Notes: generated by a model from the letters alone, not told the origin. A stretch of DNA of 39,194 nt from an uncultured Caryophanales bacterium (GCA_947164155.1 CAMUVS010000007.1:1-39194), one strand, 5' to 3'. Shown: positions 31,458 to 39,194, numbered from the stretch's first letter. Translations and numbers: made by a program.

Positions 31458-31632
31458 ATATTTCGGTTAAATTAAAAGTGTAAAATTTAAAGGAATAATT
31501 AAATGGTGGTAGTAGACTTGGAGAACGTTTCAAATCCTTTTCAGGGTACTTGTTGGCTCAAATTAATTAATTGTGGTTATATAAAGTGTTAAGTAATCAG
31601 AACATACTGAAACACTAAAACAACCAATCAGA

Positions 31633-31662
31633 ACTCACCATTTCAAAAAGTGGTGGGTTTTT
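31633..31662 (+). terminator. Terminator-like hairpin in the post-tRNA gap
   Basis: CTCACCA (31634-31640) pairs with TGGTGGG (31651-31657), one T-G wobble, followed by five T residues. No gene precedes it within 200 bases, so a small RNA between 31460 and 31662 is possible. Confidence 0.6.
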
Positions 31663-31681
31663 AAATGTGAAATTAAAAATT

Positions 31682-31743
31682 TTACTGTATACAGTAATTA
31701 GCACTCTACTGAACAGACTGCTTGCCTCTCTCTCTCTCTCTCT
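31682..31743 (+). promoter_or_regulatory. Composite element copy 1: palindrome, degenerate CIRCE, (CT)9
   Basis: A perfect 16-base palindrome, TTACTGTATACAGTAA (31682-31697), directly abuts TTAGCACTC-N9-GACTGCTTG (31698-31724). This resembles the HrcA operator CIRCE (TTAGCACTC-N9-GAGTGCTAA): left arm 9/9, right arm 6/9, exact spacing. A (CT)9 tract follows (31726-31743). The layout matches the second element at 38755. Confidence 0.65.
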
Positions 31744-31822
31744 AAAATATTAGTGAAAATATTTAATAAAATTTTATTTTCTTAACGTCATGTATTTTAA
31801 ATACTTTCTGGAGACAGTTATT

Positions 31823-31856
31823 TTGAAAACATGACTTTTTTGTTCATCGTTTTCAA
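31823..31856 (+). promoter_or_regulatory. Leader hairpin before the two-helix membrane protein gene
   Basis: TTGAAAAC-ATGA pairs with TCAT-C-GTTTTCAA (12 pairs, one bulge; loop about 9 bases). It ends seven bases before the GAGGGG Shine-Dalgarno (31864-31869) of the gene at 31874. There is no T run after it, so a translation or stability role is more likely than termination. Confidence 0.5.
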
Positions 31857-31873
31857 TAAAAAAGAGGGGAAAC

Positions 31874-32869
31874 ATGGACAAGCAATCCTTATTAAATAAT
31901 CTTTATGTGGCAAAAGCCTTATATAGTTGTTACCAAACAAATTTACAAACAGCTTACAATTTAAAAAATGATTATAAAAATGAAAGTAATCAATATCAAC
32001 AAAGATTAGATAACGAATCTAAAACTCAAAGAGAGGCTATTTTAATTACGCAGGATAAACACGTTGGCCTTCTGCTTAAGATTTTTGGGTTCTCTGCCTT
32101 GGCGTGGGGGATTTTACAGGGGATAGGTTCTTGCATTAAATCAGAATCTAATCCGACCAAATCATCCGAAGTGTTAATTAATAACCTTGTTTTTGGAATA
32201 GTTATGGGCATTTTAGTTGGTGGCGGTTTGATCGCAATACTTATTGATTTAATCGTTTGCAAAGCATTAAACGCAAAATATAAAAAAGAATATGAAAAAA
32301 ATAAAAAAATTGTAGCAGCAGCTAATCAAAAGAGATTAGTTGAATATAGACGCGTTTCTGAAAAGAAAAAAGCTGATTTAGTTTTATTAAACAATCGTTT
32401 AAAAAGATTTGAATCACAGAGCAACTCGGCATTAACGGCGTTTAATAAATTTTTATCGACTAATTTTTTGTACAAAGATTATCAATCTATTATTCCTATT
32501 TGCCAATTTATTAAATATCTTGAAAGCGGCATTTGTTCTCAATTGGAAGGCCCATTTGGTTGCTATAGCAAGTATGAAGAAGAACTTAGACAAAATTTAA
32601 TAATTAATAAATTAGATGTCATATACGATAGTTTGCAAAGGATCGAAAGTAACCAACAAGTTATGGTTAGGACATTAAAATCTATTGATGCAAATACAAG
32701 AAGCATCTATAGCGTTGCATGCGATTTAAACGATAAAGTTGGTGATATTGCAGAAAATGTTAAAGCTATAAAAGTTTGCGAGAAAATTAACGCCGTAACT
32801 GGAATCATTACCGCCTACAACACATCTGCGATTTTGTCTCAAATGACTTATTACAACACACATAATTAA
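31874..32869 (+). CDS. Two-helix membrane protein with coiled coils, unknown function
   Basis: I do not recognise a named family. The 331-residue protein has a helical, Gln/Asn-rich N-terminus (1-62), two membrane segments (about 67-86, LLKIFGFSALAWGILQGIGS; about 107-131, LVFGIVMGILVGGGLIAILI and on), then long charged coiled-coil regions (about 132-185 and 240-315). The C-terminal part has regular heptad-like spacing (LDVIYDSLQRIESNQQVMVR). No signal peptide is evident, so both termini could face the cytoplasm. GAGGGG precedes the ATG. It lies downstream of the CIRCE-like element (about 130 bp), which suggests stress control. Its neighbours are surface lipoproteins. Confidence 0.75.
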   Translation: MDKQSLLNNLYVAKALYSCYQTNLQTAYNLKNDYKNESNQYQQRLDNESKTQREAILITQDKHVGLLLKIFGFSALAWGILQGIGSCIKSESNPTKSSEVLINNLVFGIVMGILVGGGLIAILIDLIVCKALNAKYKKEYEKNKKIVAAANQKRLVEYRRVSEKKKADLVLLNNRLKRFESQSNSALTAFNKFLSTNFLYKDYQSIIPICQFIKYLESGICSQLEGPFGCYSKYEEELRQNLIINKLDVIYDSLQRIESNQQVMVRTLKSIDANTRSIYSVACDLNDKVGDIAENVKAIKVCEKINAVTGIITAYNTSAILSQMTYYNTHN

Positions 32870-32905
32870 AGGAACGCGTGGAATTAATTAGAAGTCTTTA
32901 CGTAA

Positions 32906-32935
32906 TTGTTGAGTAAATAATTAGTTTTCTATAAA
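32906..32935 (+). promoter_or_regulatory. Candidate promoter of the GLUG lipoprotein gene
   Basis: TTGTTG (32906-32911), an 18-base spacer and TATAAA (32930-32935) lie upstream of AAAGGAGGAAG (32945-32955) and the ATG at 32962. Confidence 0.55.
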
Positions 32936-32961
32936 GAATGAACAACAAAGGAGGAAGAAAT

Positions 32962-34761
32962 ATGCGCTGTTGGAAAATTCTTATGTTATCTATTTCATTA
33001 TCATTAATCGGGTGTGGAACATCTCCGCAAGATGATGATAGTTTAATAAAGATTAATTCGCTTGAAGAATTCAAAGATCGTATTTTAAATCGCACCAACA
33101 AAACAATTGAAGGGTGTGAGTTGACTGTGGATTTGGATTTTGGCGGGGCAGTTCTCAATCCTAATGGTGTTGAAAAGAGATTCATTTTTGACGGCAAAAA
33201 TCACACAATAAGCAATTTTAAAATTCTCGGTTCGGCAAATGCAGGGTTGTTTGGGAAAGCCTACAATTCTACTATAAAGAATATTGTGTTTGATAATGCA
33301 CAAGTAACTGGAATCTCTCCAGGAGTTCTCGCTTCTACAGTTTCAAATTCTACTATTGAAAATATTGTTGTCAGATCAAATTGCAAAATAGGGGATGGTT
33401 CTGAAGCTTTTTCTGGCGGAGTAATTGGATATGCTTCAAACGACTCTAAAATATCAAAATGCATAAATTATGCGGAAGTTAAAGGCGGCAATTCTACCGG
33501 AGGAATTGTTGGAAAACTATATAATTCTGGTATTAATGATTCTGAAAATTATGGCAATATCACAGGATATGGAGATCGAAATGTCGGCGGAATAACTGGT
33601 TTTATAGAACAAAAATGGGATTCATATGGAGATTCTCATCCAGTTAAACAAACTAACAACAAGAATTATGGAACTATAAACGGAAGAGAAGCTAATAGAG
33701 TTGGTGGCATCATTGGTGGCTATACTAGGTCTGATGCAACTTATACCTCATATTCTCAAGTATGTTCATTCACTAGTAATGAAAACTTTGGAGCAGTTAA
33801 AGGAATTGATAATGTTGGTGGCATTATTGGTGGTTGTGCAGATTCTGAAAGTGCCGAAATTAGAGTTACATATTGCAATAACACAGGAACCGTAACTGGC
33901 AGTGAGAATGTTGGCGGAATAGTTGGTGCCAATGTTAAAAACATGTCAATATCGCAATCCAAGAATTTATATAATAACGATAGATCTAATTATGTTTCTG
34001 GTTATTATAACGTTGGTGGCATTTGCGGTGTTGGACACCATTTTGAATTTTGTGAAAATGCCGGACTAGTCAAATTAGAAAAGAAAGCAAATGCTGAAGA
34101 TAAAGATAGTTACACTCATCATAAAGGGCAATACGGAATTGGTGGCATTTGTGGCAATAATTTTGCAAACGAAGTACCAAATATTAAAAATTGCATTAAT
34201 AGCGGAGATGTTTGTGGATATTCAGTTGATGAACAAATGTATTGTGAAGGCACTTCAGTTGGTGGGTTAGTAGGCATCCTTTGTGGTGGCAATGTCCAAT
34301 ATTCCGAAAATACAGGATCGGTTAATGGAAGTTCTTGCGTTGGCGGAATTATTGGAGCGTTAGTTCCATCTAATGAAGCAAAGATTACTAACAACTCGTT
34401 TACCGGTTCAATTACTGGGGCTAATTATTCAAGTGGCGGTTTGATTGGATATATTTATGCTTATAATTTAGAACACTCTAAAAAAGTTACAATTTCTGAA
34501 TGTTTGGTTGATAGTAATCGAATATATGGATATGGCCAAAGAATTAGTGGCTTAATTGGTTCATCCTATATTAGCACTGAAGATTCTTCTTATTATGGTA
34601 TTTCAAAAATTTTTGAATGCACAATTAATGGAACAATTCATGCAATTACTGGTCAAGGAGCGGAAATACTAGGCAGCAATCCTGTATCTCCAAGTGGAAT
34701 TAAATACATAGATATTCTCGAAGATACTCTTACTGTAGATATCGCTGTAGTTAAAGAATAA
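32962..34761 (+). CDS. GLUG-repeat surface lipoprotein
   Basis: The 599-residue protein starts with a lipoprotein signal (MRCWKILMLSISLSLIGC, lipobox SLIG-C). The start at 32962 is taken because AAAGGAGG lies just before it; an ATG at 32938 lies before that site. From about residue 90 the protein is a series of about 12 units ending in GG(I/V/L)(V/I)G motifs, such as GGIVGK, GGITGF, GGIIGG, GGICGV and GGLIGY, spaced by 30-50 residues. These are GLUG-type repeats expected to fold as a right-handed beta-helix or similar solenoid on the cell surface. The ligand is unknown; adhesion is inferred from the family type. Confidence 0.85.
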   Translation: MRCWKILMLSISLSLIGCGTSPQDDDSLIKINSLEEFKDRILNRTNKTIEGCELTVDLDFGGAVLNPNGVEKRFIFDGKNHTISNFKILGSANAGLFGKAYNSTIKNIVFDNAQVTGISPGVLASTVSNSTIENIVVRSNCKIGDGSEAFSGGVIGYASNDSKISKCINYAEVKGGNSTGGIVGKLYNSGINDSENYGNITGYGDRNVGGITGFIEQKWDSYGDSHPVKQTNNKNYGTINGREANRVGGIIGGYTRSDATYTSYSQVCSFTSNENFGAVKGIDNVGGIIGGCADSESAEIRVTYCNNTGTVTGSENVGGIVGANVKNMSISQSKNLYNNDRSNYVSGYYNVGGICGVGHHFEFCENAGLVKLEKKANAEDKDSYTHHKGQYGIGGICGNNFANEVPNIKNCINSGDVCGYSVDEQMYCEGTSVGGLVGILCGGNVQYSENTGSVNGSSCVGGIIGALVPSNEAKITNNSFTGSITGANYSSGGLIGYIYAYNLEHSKKVTISECLVDSNRIYGYGQRISGLIGSSYISTEDSSYYGISKIFECTINGTIHAITGQGAEILGSNPVSPSGIKYIDILEDTLTVDIAVVKE

Positions 34762-34810
34762 TGGTATTTATGAAAGAATAATACTCAAAAAAGATTGAGG
34801 GCAAATTGTT

Positions 34811-37507
34811 ATGAGAAAATTTTTGATAATAAATGTTTTAATGATATCAGTGTTATTAACTGGTTGTAATTTTAATATCAACCAAACTAGCGATCACACA
34901 CCTACTGAACACGTTCATACTCCAGGAACCCCTGTCGAAGAAAATAAAATAGAACCGACATGCGTTGAAAATGGTTCTTATGATTTGGTCACTTATTGTG
35001 TTGATGATGGTGTCGAAATGCATAGAGAGACAATTATTATTCCCGCAACTGGACATGATTTAATTCATCACGATGGTCAAGCCGCTACATGTACTGAAGA
35101 TGGTTGGTTAGAATATGATACATGTTCAAAATGTGATTATTCGACATTTCAAAGTATTCCTGCAACCAATCATCCAAATCAAGAAGTTAGAGAAGAAAAT
35201 AGAATAGAAGCTACTTGTACAGAAGATGGTTCCTATGACTTAGTTACTTATTGTCTTGATGAGAATATAGTGCTTTCTTCTGAACATATTGTTTTAAAAG
35301 CAACTGGACATGATTTAATTCATCACGATGGTAAAGAGCCATGCGTAGGAGAAGATGGTTTTAATGAATATGACACCTGTTCTAAGTGTGATTATTCTAC
35401 TTTTGAACTTCGACATAATTTATGCGAACCTGTTTATCAATGGAACGATGACTATTCTGAATGTAAGGCAGTTTTATCCTGCTCCAACTGTGACTATATT
35501 CTGTATGAAACTAGTTATTGTTCTTGCGCCACAATTTCTAGAGCGTATAGCGATTCAAATAAAATATATGTGTATAAAGTTTATAATGCTAACTTTTCTA
35601 ATAACAATTTAGTTTCTCAAAGTTACGAAGTTTTAGTTGAAGAGTTAGATGGACTAGATAATTTATCTTTTCGAAAAGATGAAGCTACCAATCGATGTGC
35701 TGTGAAAGCTGCTAATCGCACAATTGAATCGGCATACATACCTACATATTTTGATGACATTCCAGTCACTCATATTATGGTAGATGCTTTTTATAATTGC
35801 TCATCTCTAACATCGGTAACTATCCCAAATAGCGTTGTTTATATTGGCAGAAATGCTTTTTATAAGTGCTCATCTCTAACATCGGTAACTATCCCAAATA
35901 GCGTTAACCAAATTCCTGAAAATCCTTTTTATGGATGTACTTCTTTAAGTGAAATTGTCGTAGATAAAGAAAATCCATATTTTACTTTCGATAACGGAGT
36001 TTTATTCAATAAAAACCTAACTACTTTAATATCTTTTTTAGCTTTTCAACAAAGTTCTTATAATATTCCAAATACTGTAACTACGATTGTTGATAAAGCA
36101 TTTTCACATTGTACGAACTTAACCTCAATAACATTTCCTGATAGCTTAATTACAATTGAAAATTCTGCATTTTCCAATTGTTCTTCTCTCCAATCTATTG
36201 TTCTTCCAGATAGTGTTGAGACTATCGGAGCAAATGCATTTTTTTACTGCACATCTGTTAGCTATCTAAAACTTGGCTGTAATGTTAAAAAAATAGGATC
36301 GGCAGCGTTTCGATATTGTAATATCAACACAGTAGTGATTCCGGCTTCAGCAGAAGCAGTTGCTTATGATGCGTTTTACAATGAATCCAATGAAATTGAA
36401 GTATATTTTGTAGTTAAATCGTTTAAGGATTTCGTTAGCATCGAAAGATATGAAGCTCGACTCGCTACCTTTTTTGTTCATCTTATTGACGAAAGAGGAA
36501 AAGAAATAAAAGAAGTTGTAATACCTGAAGGAGTTGAAGTAATAGAGGATGGAAGCTTTTATGGTTGCACATCAATTACTTCTATAACGATTCCTAATGG
36601 TGTTTCTGAAATTGGCATGTATGCATTTGAATCATGTTCTTCCTTAACTTCAATAATACTTCCAGATAGTTTGACAACAATTTATGGTTCTGCATTTAAA
36701 TCTTGCACTTCCTTGTCATCGATAGTGCTGCCAAATAGTTTGACAACAATTTATAGTTCTCTTTTTGAAAATTGTTCGTCTTTAACGTCTATAATAATTC
36801 CAGATAGTGTTGAAACAATTCTTTCAGAACCTTTTAAAGGATGTTCTTCTCTAAAATATATCTATCTTGGAAAAGGGGTAAAATCATTTAGTAATAGTCC
36901 AAACATTCATCCAAATCCTTTTGTATATTGTGATAATTTGGAGACCATTGAAGTTAGCCCAGACAATCCTTATTTTTCTTCAACTAATGGAGTCCTGTTT
37001 AACAAAGAAGAAACTATAATTTATAGATGCCCAAGTAAAAATAATTTATCTAGTATTTCAATTCCAAGCACAGTCAAAACAATTTATAACGATGCGTTTT
37101 TAGATTGTATTAATATTAAATCGGTTCTTATACCATATGGCGTTACTCTAATATATGGAGATGCGTTTTACGGGTGTACTTCGTTAACCAGTATTTCTAT
37201 TCCAAATTCGGTTACCGAATTGTACTCAGGAGCTTTTAACAATTGCAGTTCCTTAACCAGTATTAATTTTGGAAGCGGTATTACTGGATTGGCATCATAT
37301 CTAGTTAGAGGTTGCACGTCACTTAAGTCTATATATTTACCTAAAACAATAGTTAATATATCATCATTCGCTTTAAAGGAATGTGGCTGCAATTATCTTT
37401 CTTATGGTGGAACTATTTCGGAATGGAAAAAAGTTAGCAAAGGATACGATTGGCATCCAGCAGCAGTTAAAGTTGTTCATTGTACGAATGGTGACACAAC
37501 ACTTTAA
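34811..37507 (+). CDS. BspA-like leucine-rich-repeat surface lipoprotein
   Basis: The 898-residue protein has a lipoprotein signal, MRKFLIINVLMISVLLTGC. Residues about 30-240 hold Cys-rich tandem units (CVENGSYDLVTYC, ATGHDLIHHDG, EYDTCSKCDYSTF) like those in Firmicutes surface proteins. From about residue 310 to the end it is a BspA/LRR_5 array of roughly 23-residue units: AF--C-SLTSITIP-SV--I. Such proteins commonly bind host or matrix proteins; binding partners here are unknown. GAGGG lies 9 bases before the ATG. The array contains an exact 39-bp repeat (35798-35836 and 35867-35905), one LRR unit apart, suggesting recent duplication. Confidence 0.88.
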   Translation: MRKFLIINVLMISVLLTGCNFNINQTSDHTPTEHVHTPGTPVEENKIEPTCVENGSYDLVTYCVDDGVEMHRETIIIPATGHDLIHHDGQAATCTEDGWLEYDTCSKCDYSTFQSIPATNHPNQEVREENRIEATCTEDGSYDLVTYCLDENIVLSSEHIVLKATGHDLIHHDGKEPCVGEDGFNEYDTCSKCDYSTFELRHNLCEPVYQWNDDYSECKAVLSCSNCDYILYETSYCSCATISRAYSDSNKIYVYKVYNANFSNNNLVSQSYEVLVEELDGLDNLSFRKDEATNRCAVKAANRTIESAYIPTYFDDIPVTHIMVDAFYNCSSLTSVTIPNSVVYIGRNAFYKCSSLTSVTIPNSVNQIPENPFYGCTSLSEIVVDKENPYFTFDNGVLFNKNLTTLISFLAFQQSSYNIPNTVTTIVDKAFSHCTNLTSITFPDSLITIENSAFSNCSSLQSIVLPDSVETIGANAFFYCTSVSYLKLGCNVKKIGSAAFRYCNINTVVIPASAEAVAYDAFYNESNEIEVYFVVKSFKDFVSIERYEARLATFFVHLIDERGKEIKEVVIPEGVEVIEDGSFYGCTSITSITIPNGVSEIGMYAFESCSSLTSIILPDSLTTIYGSAFKSCTSLSSIVLPNSLTTIYSSLFENCSSLTSIIIPDSVETILSEPFKGCSSLKYIYLGKGVKSFSNSPNIHPNPFVYCDNLETIEVSPDNPYFSSTNGVLFNKEETIIYRCPSKNNLSSISIPSTVKTIYNDAFLDCINIKSVLIPYGVTLIYGDAFYGCTSLTSISIPNSVTELYSGAFNNCSSLTSINFGSGITGLASYLVRGCTSLKSIYLPKTIVNISSFALKECGCNYLSYGGTISEWKKVSKGYDWHPAAVKVVHCTNGDTTL
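35798..35905 (+). repeat. Exact 39-bp tandem repeat in the LRR region
   Basis: The 39-base sequence beginning TGCTCATCTCTAACATCGG recurs unchanged at 35798-35836 and 35867-35905, offset by 69 bases, which is one 23-residue LRR unit. Synonymous positions are also identical, unlike most other units, so this is a young duplication or gene-conversion product. Confidence 0.95.
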
Positions 37508-37627
37508 CATTATGTTGCAACGTAGGAAGCTATAGTTAAATAATTTTGAGTATTTATTAATAAAAAAGCATCCATAATCACTGCATATAAGATAAGTTAT
37601 TTAAAGCGTGGTTTTGTTTTTTGACTC

Positions 37628-37655
37628 TACACTTAGTGTAATGTCGTTACGATAG
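37628..37655. repeat. Left member of an inverted-repeat pair flanking the NUMOD1-repeat gene
   Basis: The sequence TACACTTAGTGTAATG followed by TCGTTACGATAG aligns with the reverse complement of 38587-38615, about 23 identical positions with a few 1-2 base gaps. It lies about 110 bp beyond the stop codon of the minus-strand gene. It overlaps a perfect palindrome TACACT-T-AGTGTA (37628-37640). Confidence 0.5.
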
Positions 37656-37698
37656 TACTATTAATGCCGTTACATTGAGACATTATTAAGATAAGATT

Positions 37699-37727
37699 GA
37701 ACCGATGTTTAACGTTGGTTCTTTTTT
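37699..37727 (+). terminator. Plus-strand terminator between the LRR gene and the NUMOD1-repeat gene
   Basis: GAACC (37699-37703) pairs with GGTTC (37717-37721), with possible inner pairs, followed by six T residues. It could end the LRR-gene transcript with a 190-base 3' region, or a separate small RNA. Confidence 0.65.
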
Positions 37728-37765
37728 AAAATTTTTAAAAACTTTTTATTTTAGTAGTCTACTTC

Positions 37766-38569
37766 TTATTTCCTTTTCCAAATATAACCACCAGCAGTTT
37801 TTTGTCTATTCCTTATGCAATTATTAATATTAGGAATACTAATTTTGGTCTCTTTAGAAGCTTCTTTAACCGAACGGTATTTTTTAACAATTTTTTCGTT
37901 TAAATCAAGTTGATAAATCATCGGTTTTTTCGGTCTAGAAACATTCTCAAAATCCTTGTATTTCCAGATGTATCCAAAAGCGGTGGAATACTTTCCAGAA
38001 AGGCATTGTTGAATGCCTTGATTTCTCGGAGATTTTCCGAGTTCTATTAATGCCTGATTAATCGATTTATATGTTTTAACATATTTCTTATCTAATGTAT
38101 ATTGAATAATCGCGCGTTTTTCTATTATTCTTTTCACACCTTTTTGATAACCGAATTTTTCGATTTCTTCATCGCTTAATTCGCGGAATTTTTCTTTTCC
38201 TTCATAACGATATTTTCTGTTAATTCGGTCTCGTAAAGTATGAGGTTCAATATTGTTTAATTTCGCAGCTTTTTTCACTGATGGATAAGTCTCGATAATT
38301 TCTCCTGTTTCATCAATTTTTGCGATTGGGCGAATTGTTGATTTTTCGTTGCTTATTACAAGTGGTGGAATGTTGTCTGGAACTTCATCAACATTAAATC
38401 TTTTCCATTGAAGACCTTTAACTGTTGCAATATCCCCTCTAATACATCGATCAATGGTACGAGGAAAAAGATTTCTACACCGACTTGCTCTTTTGGCAGA
38501 CGGGTAGATTTTCACTAACTTTCCCTCAAGGGTATAACATGCGACAACAGTGTTTTTTGTTCGTGACAT
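37766..38569 (-). CDS. Protein of four NUMOD1/IENR1-like repeats, no nuclease domain
   Basis: The 267-residue protein consists of four related units of about 50-60 residues: about 8-58 (VVACYTLEGKLVKIYPSAKR), 78-130 (RPIAKIDETGEIIETYPSVK), 148-201 (AIIQYTLDKKYVKTYKSINQ) and 213-266 (MIYQLDLNEKIVKKYRSVKE). The last two end GYIWK. This is the pattern of NUMOD1/IENR1 repeats, small helix-turn-helix-like DNA-binding modules found in homing endonucleases. No HNH or GIY-YIG catalytic motif is seen. It could be a DNA-binding regulator or the remnant of a homing enzyme. It is Lys/Arg-rich. The ATG lies eight bases after a -10 box without a Shine-Dalgarno sequence. It is flanked by inverted repeats. 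Confidence 0.82.
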   Translation of the reverse strand: MSRTKNTVVACYTLEGKLVKIYPSAKRASRCRNLFPRTIDRCIRGDIATVKGLQWKRFNVDEVPDNIPPLVISNEKSTIRPIAKIDETGEIIETYPSVKKAAKLNNIEPHTLRDRINRKYRYEGKEKFRELSDEEIEKFGYQKGVKRIIEKRAIIQYTLDKKYVKTYKSINQALIELGKSPRNQGIQQCLSGKYSTAFGYIWKYKDFENVSRPKKPMIYQLDLNEKIVKKYRSVKEASKETKISIPNINNCIRNRQKTAGGYIWKRK

Positions 38570-38577
38570 ATAAAGTC

Positions 38578-38605
38578 ACTATAACCCTGTCGTAATGCGT
38601 CATAA
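38578..38605 (-). promoter_or_regulatory. Candidate promoter of the NUMOD1-repeat gene
   Basis: On the minus strand TTATGA (38605-38600) is followed after 16 bases by TATAGT (38583-38578), eight bases before the ATG at 38569. GTGAC and GTCAC (38563-38567, 38575-38579) form an inverted repeat around the start codon. The right inverted-repeat copy (38587-38615) covers the -35 region, where an operator would act. Confidence 0.5.
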
Positions 38606-38615
38606 CTTAGGTGTA
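38587..38615. repeat. Right member of the inverted-repeat pair flanking the NUMOD1-repeat gene
   Basis: CTGTCGTAATGCGTCATAAC followed by TTAGGTGTA is the inverted, imperfect partner of 37628-37655. Both outer ends read TACAC going inward. The copy is itself bracketed by CCCTGT (38585-38590) and ACAGGG (38617-38622). No target-site duplication was found. Confidence 0.5.
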
Positions 38616-38754
38616 CACAGGGATTTTTTGCAAGCGAAAAATCATCAAAAAACTGCTTGACAGATTTAGGGGGTGCATTATCAAAAAGGCACATCTAAAA
38701 CTAAGAGTCCTGACTTTGTCAAAAATGCTCCAAACACTCGTATATGCGAAATTT

Positions 38755-38816
38755 TTACTACTATGTAGTAATTAGCACTCAAAAGTAATGAGTGCTTGCT
38801 TCTTCTTCTTCTTCTT
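38755..38816 (+). promoter_or_regulatory. Composite element copy 2: palindrome, CIRCE, (CTT)6
   Basis: A perfect inverted repeat, TTACTAC-TAT-GTAGTAA (38755-38771), directly abuts TTAGCACTC-N9-GAGTGCTTG (38772-38798), which matches CIRCE at 9/9 left and 7/9 right positions with the exact 9-base spacer. A (CTT)6 tract follows (38799-38816). CIRCE is the binding site of the heat-shock repressor HrcA. The first supported gene downstream starts at 39169. Confidence 0.8.
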
Positions 38817-39168
38817 TATAGAATATAAAGCAAGAGATGGAAACAAAGTTGAAATAGACGCTCCTGGTCAAAGCGTCTTAATTCAAATTCATCCCTCTCT
38901 GTTTGCTTCAAAAGAGAATTTAGAACAAAAGTGCACATTGCTCTCCTTTCTCGAAATGAGCAAACGTCACAGAACCATCCTATTGCCATTTAGGGCTTAT
39001 TTGATAGCGGTGGGGCGTGACAAAACAACATAGTTAGTCTTTAACTCGAGTGGATTTTTAGGAAACTCGAAGACTTATTGATTAACTTCATTCATGTTGT
39101 TCATATACCTCATGGTTGTAAATTATCGAAAACTCAGCCGGAGGAAGAAATGAAAGGAGAAAATTTAT

Positions 39169-39194
39169 ATGAACAAATTATTTACAAAGATTGC
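39169..39194 (+). CDS. Start of a probable exported protein (partial)
   Basis: Only MNKLFTKI and two bases of the next codon are visible before the window ends. AAAGGAGA (39153-39160) is well placed for this ATG. The opening, positive residues then hydrophobic ones, is typical of signal peptides of exported proteins in this kind of bacterium. A competing ATG at 39150 in another frame, with GGAGG five bases upstream, would read MKGENLYEQIIYKDC to the window end; which is used cannot be decided here. Confidence 0.5.

Follow-up and report, generated by a model that had tools for sequence, protein, structure and literature searches.

The window considered here, meaning the whole stretch of DNA that was analysed, is 39,194 nucleotides from an uncultured Caryophanales bacterium (GCA_947164155.1 CAMUVS010000007.1:1-39194). 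It carries two copies of a composite element that are best read as phase-variable promoters. Each copy consists of a perfect inverted repeat (dyad), an operator resembling the controlling inverted repeat of chaperone expression (CIRCE) that is associated with the repressor HrcA, and a predicted promoter in which a microsatellite forms the spacer. The parts of the two copies are located as follows.

31682..31697, + strand: upstream dyad of copy 1, TTACTGTATACAGTAA, with arms TTACTGTA and TACAGTAA, from direct reading and dyad statistics over 84 copies
31698..31724, + strand: CIRCE-like operator of copy 1, TTAGCACTC-TACTGAACA-GACTGCTTG, with an N9 middle; 3 mismatches from CIRCE
31722..31727, + strand: predicted -35 box of copy 1, TTGCCT
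31726..31743, + strand: (CT)9 microsatellite of copy 1, which makes up the promoter spacer; its length of 15 bp is one CT below 17
31743..31748, + strand: predicted -10 box of copy 1, TAAAAT
38755..38771, + strand: upstream dyad of copy 2, TTACTACTATGTAGTAA (TTACTAC-TAT-GTAGTAA), identical in the relative G001 (L018/L126)
38772..38798, + strand: CIRCE-like operator of copy 2, TTAGCACTC-AAAAGTAAT-GAGTGCTTG, with an N9 middle; 2 mismatches from CIRCE
38796..38801, + strand: predicted -35 box of copy 2, TTGCTT
38799..38816, + strand: (CTT)6 microsatellite of copy 2, in the spacer; spacer 17 bp (4 units and a spacer of 11 in the relative G001)
38819..38824, + strand: predicted -10 box of copy 2, TAGAAT

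The initial annotation had described a shared architecture at 31682-31743 and 38755-38816, and both copies conform to it exactly, on the + strand and with the parts in the same order; both dyads are perfect inverted repeats despite their different middles, as it had also claimed. Two sites within three mismatches of the CIRCE consensus are present in the window, where none is expected, and these are the two copies. The right half of copy 1 reads GACTGC, hence its 3 mismatches. In pattern searches of the 1.31-Mb genome, TTAGCACTC-N8..10-GASTGCTT has exactly two matches and its reversed control has none; a degenerate third copy lies at C19:8139.

The element recurs across the family. The composite was sought, with mismatches allowed, in 19 genomes of the genus and 224 of the family. 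Matches were found in 18 of the 19 by the looser genus search, canonical CIRCEs among them, and in 43 of the 224 genomes (10 of 35 genera) by the stricter family search. Two genus g3 matches ending in CTAG resemble canonical CIRCEs and were excluded, and the working set comprises 84 distinct copies, collected with their flanks from related Bacilli genomes. When 84,980 species genomes were scanned for the exact core plus a pyrimidine tract, 22 matches were returned. Of these, 20 are metagenome-assembled genomes (MAGs) that carry the label Bacilli, Bacillales or Erysipelotrichaceae, and several of them come from ruminants. The remaining two, from Kryptoniota and Bacteroidetes, are tandem-CIRCE promoters that lack the repeat, and were rejected as family members. 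When perfect pyrimidine repeats of at least 15 nucleotides were sought in ten relatives without regard to CIRCE, 26 of 27 among the matches listed are in this promoter context; these 27 comprise 23 recognised elements, 3 diverged ones (L201-L203) and 1 coding repeat. The initial annotation had conceded that the likeness might be one chance duplication if further copies were lacking and the dyad were not conserved between homologous loci. Because many copies occur in relatives, and the homologous loci L020, L022 and L137 have perfect dyads with different letters, its proposal of a reused regulatory module holds; chance duplication is ruled out by the matches in the window, the genome and the relatives.

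Comparison of the copies reveals a constant promoter anatomy: usually a dyad, then TTAGCACTC-N9-GAGTGC, a -35 box, the microsatellite as spacer and a -10 box of the form TANAAT. In nearly every copy the GAGTGC right half continues straight into TTG, and the -35 boxes read TTGCTT, TTGCTC, TTGACT, TTGCAA or similar. The GCTTGC found 3' of the CIRCE-like half-site is thus the -35 box, a role that the initial annotation overlooked. The repeat itself may be (CTT)n, (CT)n, (AAG)n, (AC)n or poly-C, always in the space between TTGNNN and TANAAT. Because the type of repeat is free and its position fixed, length rather than repeat sequence is what matters.

Spacer lengths step by whole repeat units around the 17-bp optimum, which is also the commonest length. 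Trinucleotide spacers measured 11 (2 copies), 14 (8), 17 (17), 20 (8) or 23 bp (4), and dinucleotide spacers mainly 15 (10), 17 (12) or 19 bp (5). When the -10 box was searched for with no preference for any spacing, the spacer equalled 17 modulo the repeat unit in 37 of 38 copies with trinucleotide repeats and in 31 of 33 with dinucleotide repeats. This register spans 20 (trinucleotide) and 17 (dinucleotide) different right-flank types, so one ancestral flank is unlikely to be its source. The spacer is exactly 17 bp in all five copies with interrupted repeats (L022, L081, L105, L120 and L125), as expected of promoters locked ON.

Repeat length also differs between otherwise identical alleles. 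L093 and L095 have 7 and 5 units within identical or near-identical flanks, L029 and L090 have 7 and 8 units within flanks that are 100% identical, and copy 2 has 6 units, versus 4 in its G001 orthologue, at 96% identity over 1.4 kb. L029 (G016) and L090 (G085) belong to different genera, and the identity of their flanks extends to the start of the downstream gene, with one CTT unit as the sole difference; either a recent transfer or a mis-binned contig could account for this. In the window, expression from copy 1 (spacer 15) is predicted to be low and copy 2 (spacer 17) is predicted to be ON. By its anatomy the element is best taken for a promoter, not an RNA, and because a microsatellite serves as the -35/-10 spacer of this promoter core, phase variation is its likely function.

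The upstream dyad retains its symmetry while its letters change. In 56 of the 84 copies (67%), a perfect inverted repeat whose arms measure 6 bp or more ends at most 3 nucleotides from TTAGCAC, compared with 2.9% for shuffled flanks and 4.5% for shifted anchors, so that the dyad is strongly selected. As the initial annotation had supposed from two examples, sequence has drifted under a preserved dyad: the 56 copies carry 52 distinct dyads, with a loop of 3 nucleotides in 36. Most have the centre AC-NNN-GT and the ends TTA...TAA, with a middle that varies symmetrically. When the dyads at homologous loci in three species are compared (TTACAAC-TCT-GTTGTAA in L020, TTATTAC-TCA-GTAATAA in L022 and TTATTAC-TTT-GTAATAA in L137), two pairs have changed on both sides, and in L085, L093 and L095 the arms are constant and the loop alone differs. 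Because arms either change on both sides or stay while the loop varies, the symmetry is, by this comparison, under selection.

The dyad is located upstream of the -35 box, outside the transcript of this promoter, so an RNA hairpin is unlikely and recognition as DNA is more likely. Of the two inputs that the initial annotation proposed, HrcA is a likely one, given that the CIRCE-like part matches HrcA operators; for the other, a dyad-binding protein or an RNA hairpin, the protein is the likelier option. No partner of the dyad was found, and the one candidate examined was a TetR protein (G000:C27:14876). Its own upstream dyad, TTATTAC-NNN-GTAATAA, is like some element dyads, with arms kept and loop free in relatives. 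It was rejected as a general reader because its orthologue is absent from 8 of the 19 genus genomes, some of which are nearly complete and contain elements that have a dyad. At L214 (1579-1595), TTATTAC-AAA-GTAATAA precedes a TetR-family gene; in three orthologues of this gene the arms are retained and the loop alone varies. The notion that the dyad compensates for a weak -35 box was likewise discarded: the association (p=0.018 overall) disappears when loci with the leader RNA described below are removed (p=0.56).

The CIRCE-like part of both copies resembles the HrcA operators of the genome's own hrcA and clpB genes, in agreement with the initial annotation. Each of the 19 genus genomes encodes a single HrcA, as do 17 of 19 other genomes that bear the element. 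At hrcA and clpB, the promoters have paired CIRCEs, one overlapping the -35 box and one downstream of the -10 box. In the element, the left half is a perfect CIRCE half-site, and the right half deviates where it doubles as the -35 box. Copy 2 has two changes, and copy 1 three, relative to TTAGCACTC-N9-GAGTGCTAA. In Mollicutes, a functional CIRCE tolerates at most two mismatches (PMC5138195). We use the term CIRCE-like, and do not call the element a CIRCE heat-shock promoter, because its targets are mostly lipoproteins and secreted proteins and the true CIRCEs are those at hrcA and clpB. HrcA is the economical candidate for the ligand, and we consider its binding rather likely. The diverged elements L201 and L203 have an extra half-site about 22 bp upstream, a distance of two helix turns, hinting at cooperative binding by the ligand of the CIRCE-like part.

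These features suggest a mechanism in which sequence comparison establishes the anatomy, the stepping of the spacer, the bias towards exported products and the selection of the dyad, whereas we infer the switching, the binding of HrcA and a partner for the dyad. Each copy would be a promoter of the vegetative, sigma-A type, with a hypermutable microsatellite as its -35/-10 spacer. Whole repeat units would be gained or lost through slipped-strand mispairing, which would shift the spacer between the 17-bp optimum and suboptimal lengths of 14 or 20, or 15 or 19, bp. The downstream exported-protein gene or operon would be switched on or off in a heritable and reversible manner. The -35 box abuts the CIRCE-like right half, with which its own first bases overlap, and resident HrcA would most likely bind the site and block access to the -35 box, so a promoter in the ON phase would additionally be gated by HrcA in response to heat or the state of protein folding. 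The perfect dyad immediately 5' of the operator might constitute a second input, read by a protein dimer or by a protein that recognises an extruded cruciform. Taken as a whole, a repeat-switched promoter of the sigma-A type with HrcA as gate and the dyad as second input is, in our judgement, quite probable.

Several observations weigh against this mechanism. The length differences between alleles are differences between MAGs, rather than within one population, and about a third of copies have no dyad. The targets are not chaperones or stress genes. The right half-site departs from CIRCE, and copy 1, with 3 mismatches, exceeds the limit reported for Mollicutes (PMC5138195). The elements have a single site, without the second, downstream one of the canonical pairs at hrcA and clpB, and an element-bearing genome that is 92% complete (G052) yielded no HrcA match. 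These last points would also fit a phase-variable promoter in which TTAGCACTC-N9-GAGTGC is read not by HrcA but by another protein, a regulator of a phase-variable regulon. In addition, the right half is GAGTGCTTG, often AAGTGCTTG, and some copies have symmetric N9 loops or, as in L201 and L203, the extra half-site. However, CIRCE is matched at 16 of 18 positions, double duty as the -35 box accounts for the deviant TG, and the half-site variants TTGGCACT/AGTGCCAA are found in both sets. Also, the exact half-site pair was matched twice outside Bacilli, each time in a tandem-CIRCE promoter, which means that apparent HrcA promoters can have this form. A reader other than HrcA is therefore possible but doubtful.

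Three other explanations are far less probable. The short loop of the dyad and its compensatory variation might indicate that both the dyad and its CIRCE-like neighbour form hairpins in the RNA of a 5' untranslated region, with the pyrimidine tract as an RNA feature. But a -10 box follows the repeat in strict 17-bp register, which places the expected transcription start 3' of all three parts, and the repeat letters swap strands, (AAG) versus (CTT), which an RNA role would not tolerate; we rate this as the least probable alternative. Repeats can also act other than through spacing, and the GAA repeats of Mycoplasma vlhA are a comparison for a tract that forms triplex DNA or binds a protein. Most repeats here are indeed polypyrimidine on one strand, but (AC)n occupies the same place, interrupted tracts are exactly 17 bp, and triplexes would not explain the 17-bp register, which leaves this idea highly improbable. 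Finally, the copies might mark where a mobile element ends, or might be sites of recombination that are read by structure, like integron attC, and resemble each other through transposition. The identity of L029 and L090 across genera would fit, as would a flank of about 190 bp with a terminator-like hairpin that is common to copy 1 and a different locus in G001:C48. However, the loci have no common 3' boundary, no transposase or integrase was noticed at them, the downstream genes are unrelated and the promoter core is always intact, so we think mobility very unlikely as the whole explanation. Spread of cassettes may add to the phase-variable promoter reading and would not replace it.

The shared flank lies 5' of copy 1 (window 31561-31751) and recurs in L138 (4921-5123), as though each promoter cassette travelled together with a terminator. 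The two loci were considered as the same chromosomal position, after polC, and this was rejected, as they have only the flank of about 190 bp in common.

Copy 2 is followed by a second conserved feature, a predicted structured leader between the promoter and the gene.

38831..39168 (about 340 nucleotides), + strand: structured leader RNA, of a family common to over 30 copies, with covarying helices

About 33 copies, including copy 2, share this leader of approximately 300-370 nucleotides, which precedes a secreted protein of the MNKLFTKIAG type (loci L018, L021, L023, L025, L026, L028, L029, L033, L034, L037 and others). The conserved blocks are UGGUCA, GUGCACAU and UUUAUUCAUA. In 30 sequences, two helices have 86.9% paired cells versus 65.7% in shuffles, 82 double-change cells versus 28, and a covariation of 0.56 versus 0.18; the covariation is lost when partners are slid. 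Within a core group of 14 sequences, compensatory changes occur in 22 of 36 predicted pairs, and a conserved CUCUCC is predicted to pair with the Shine-Dalgarno sequence GGAGAG, which suggests that the leader controls translation. Among the 4227 covariance models of Rfam, no family matches the leader above chance, and none matches the element. The leader has the look of a cis-regulatory RNA of a new family that serves genes for secreted proteins.

Genes behind the elements mostly encode exported products. By a crude rule, the same for both gene sets, 63 of 75 first genes have an export or lipoprotein signal, compared with about 5 of 30 other genes in the window. Products include LRR_5, GLUG, Big_2, collagen-like, TasA-like and other cell-surface proteins, the collagen-like and TasA-like assignments being made by eye. 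In the window, the genes are these.

31874..32869, + strand: gene 1 behind copy 1, a 331-amino-acid protein of unknown family, with no Pfam or PADLOC match
32938..34761, + strand: gene 2 behind copy 1, a GLUG-repeat lipoprotein (Pfam Glug, 7e-10)
34811..37507, + strand: gene 3 behind copy 1, a BspA-type leucine-rich-repeat lipoprotein (Pfam LRR_5, 6e-119)
39169..39194, + strand: start of the gene that follows copy 2 (MNKLFTKI...), truncated where the contig ends; the G001 orthologue is a 1268-amino-acid secreted Big_2 protein

Defence genes were considered as targets and rejected, as four proteins tested, the first gene of copy 1 included, gave no PADLOC match. Between the two elements, on the minus strand (37766-38569), lies a gene for a NUMOD1-repeat protein with no obvious nuclease domain. 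TasA-like genes, with the signal peptide ...YALFTDKKEA, are found behind L103 and L122, where the spacers are (CT)10 or pure poly-C. At L114 (1-600) and L124, a small Cro/C1-type helix-turn-helix protein (HTH_26) starts no more than tens of bases from the -10 box, and there is no upstream dyad. In two genomes of another genus, at L133 (G073, 749-775) and L087 (G077, 1501-1527), a (TCT)n element drives a bPH_2-domain gene that is directly 5' of a canonical CIRCE-controlled hrcA (hrcA-grpE-dnaK-dnaJ in L133).

Repeats within promoter spacers are found in Haemophilus influenzae hif, as (TA)n, and in Mycoplasma hyorhinis vlp, as poly-A. In Neisseria, porA, fetA and opc have poly-G/C between -35 and -10 (PMC2791445; fetA also PMC13293289). 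The present elements share with these systems a variable repeat in the -35/-10 spacer, surface antigens downstream and an expectation of spacing-dependent expression. Unlike them, they form one stereotyped module with a fixed operator at many loci in many genera, with five repeat types, a CIRCE-like operator abutting the -35 box and a variable dyad upstream, in uncultured Bacilli of the rumen type. In Neisseria meningitidis nadA, the repressor NadR is combined with a phase-variable repeat tract (PMC2791445), and the mechanism proposed here would similarly place a ligand-responsive repressor on such a tract and join stochastic to sensed control. In contrast, the nadA tract is upstream of the core promoter and alters the spacing between repressor operators, whereas the present tract is part of the core promoter itself and leaves the distance between the operator and the -35 box unchanged. 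As in the HrcA/CIRCE systems of hrcA-dnaK and clpB, including those of Mollicutes (PMC5138195), the half-sites are TTAGCACTC and GAGTGC, 9 bp apart, with one HrcA per genome and canonical CIRCE pairs in the same genome. In contrast to those systems, the site is single and just upstream of the -35 box, its right half is fused to that box (TTG), no second site lies downstream, and the targets are exported proteins rather than chaperones. In the literature searched, no report of a CIRCE-coupled version of such promoters, or of this clade, came up, although this does not prove that there is none.

Phase variation is best known from pathogens. The elements described here are probably phase-variable promoters of one standardised and portable design that several genera of uncultured rumen-type Bacilli share. 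The covarying dyad raises the question of which reader demands symmetry yet tolerates changes of letters. As a tentative proposal, HrcA might be the common gate of repeat-switched surface-protein promoters genome-wide, with the symmetry-read dyad as the address of each locus and, in a subset, a leader RNA that hides the ribosome binding site. Coupling to a CIRCE-like operator would tie the choice of surface to protein-folding stress. Spacer length should reveal whether a promoter is ON or OFF, so switching in animals could be followed directly in metagenomes that already exist. With leucine-rich-repeat, GLUG, immunoglobulin-like, collagen-like and TasA-like surface proteins as the targets, this gut clade is predicted to have a surface that changes as a mosaic.

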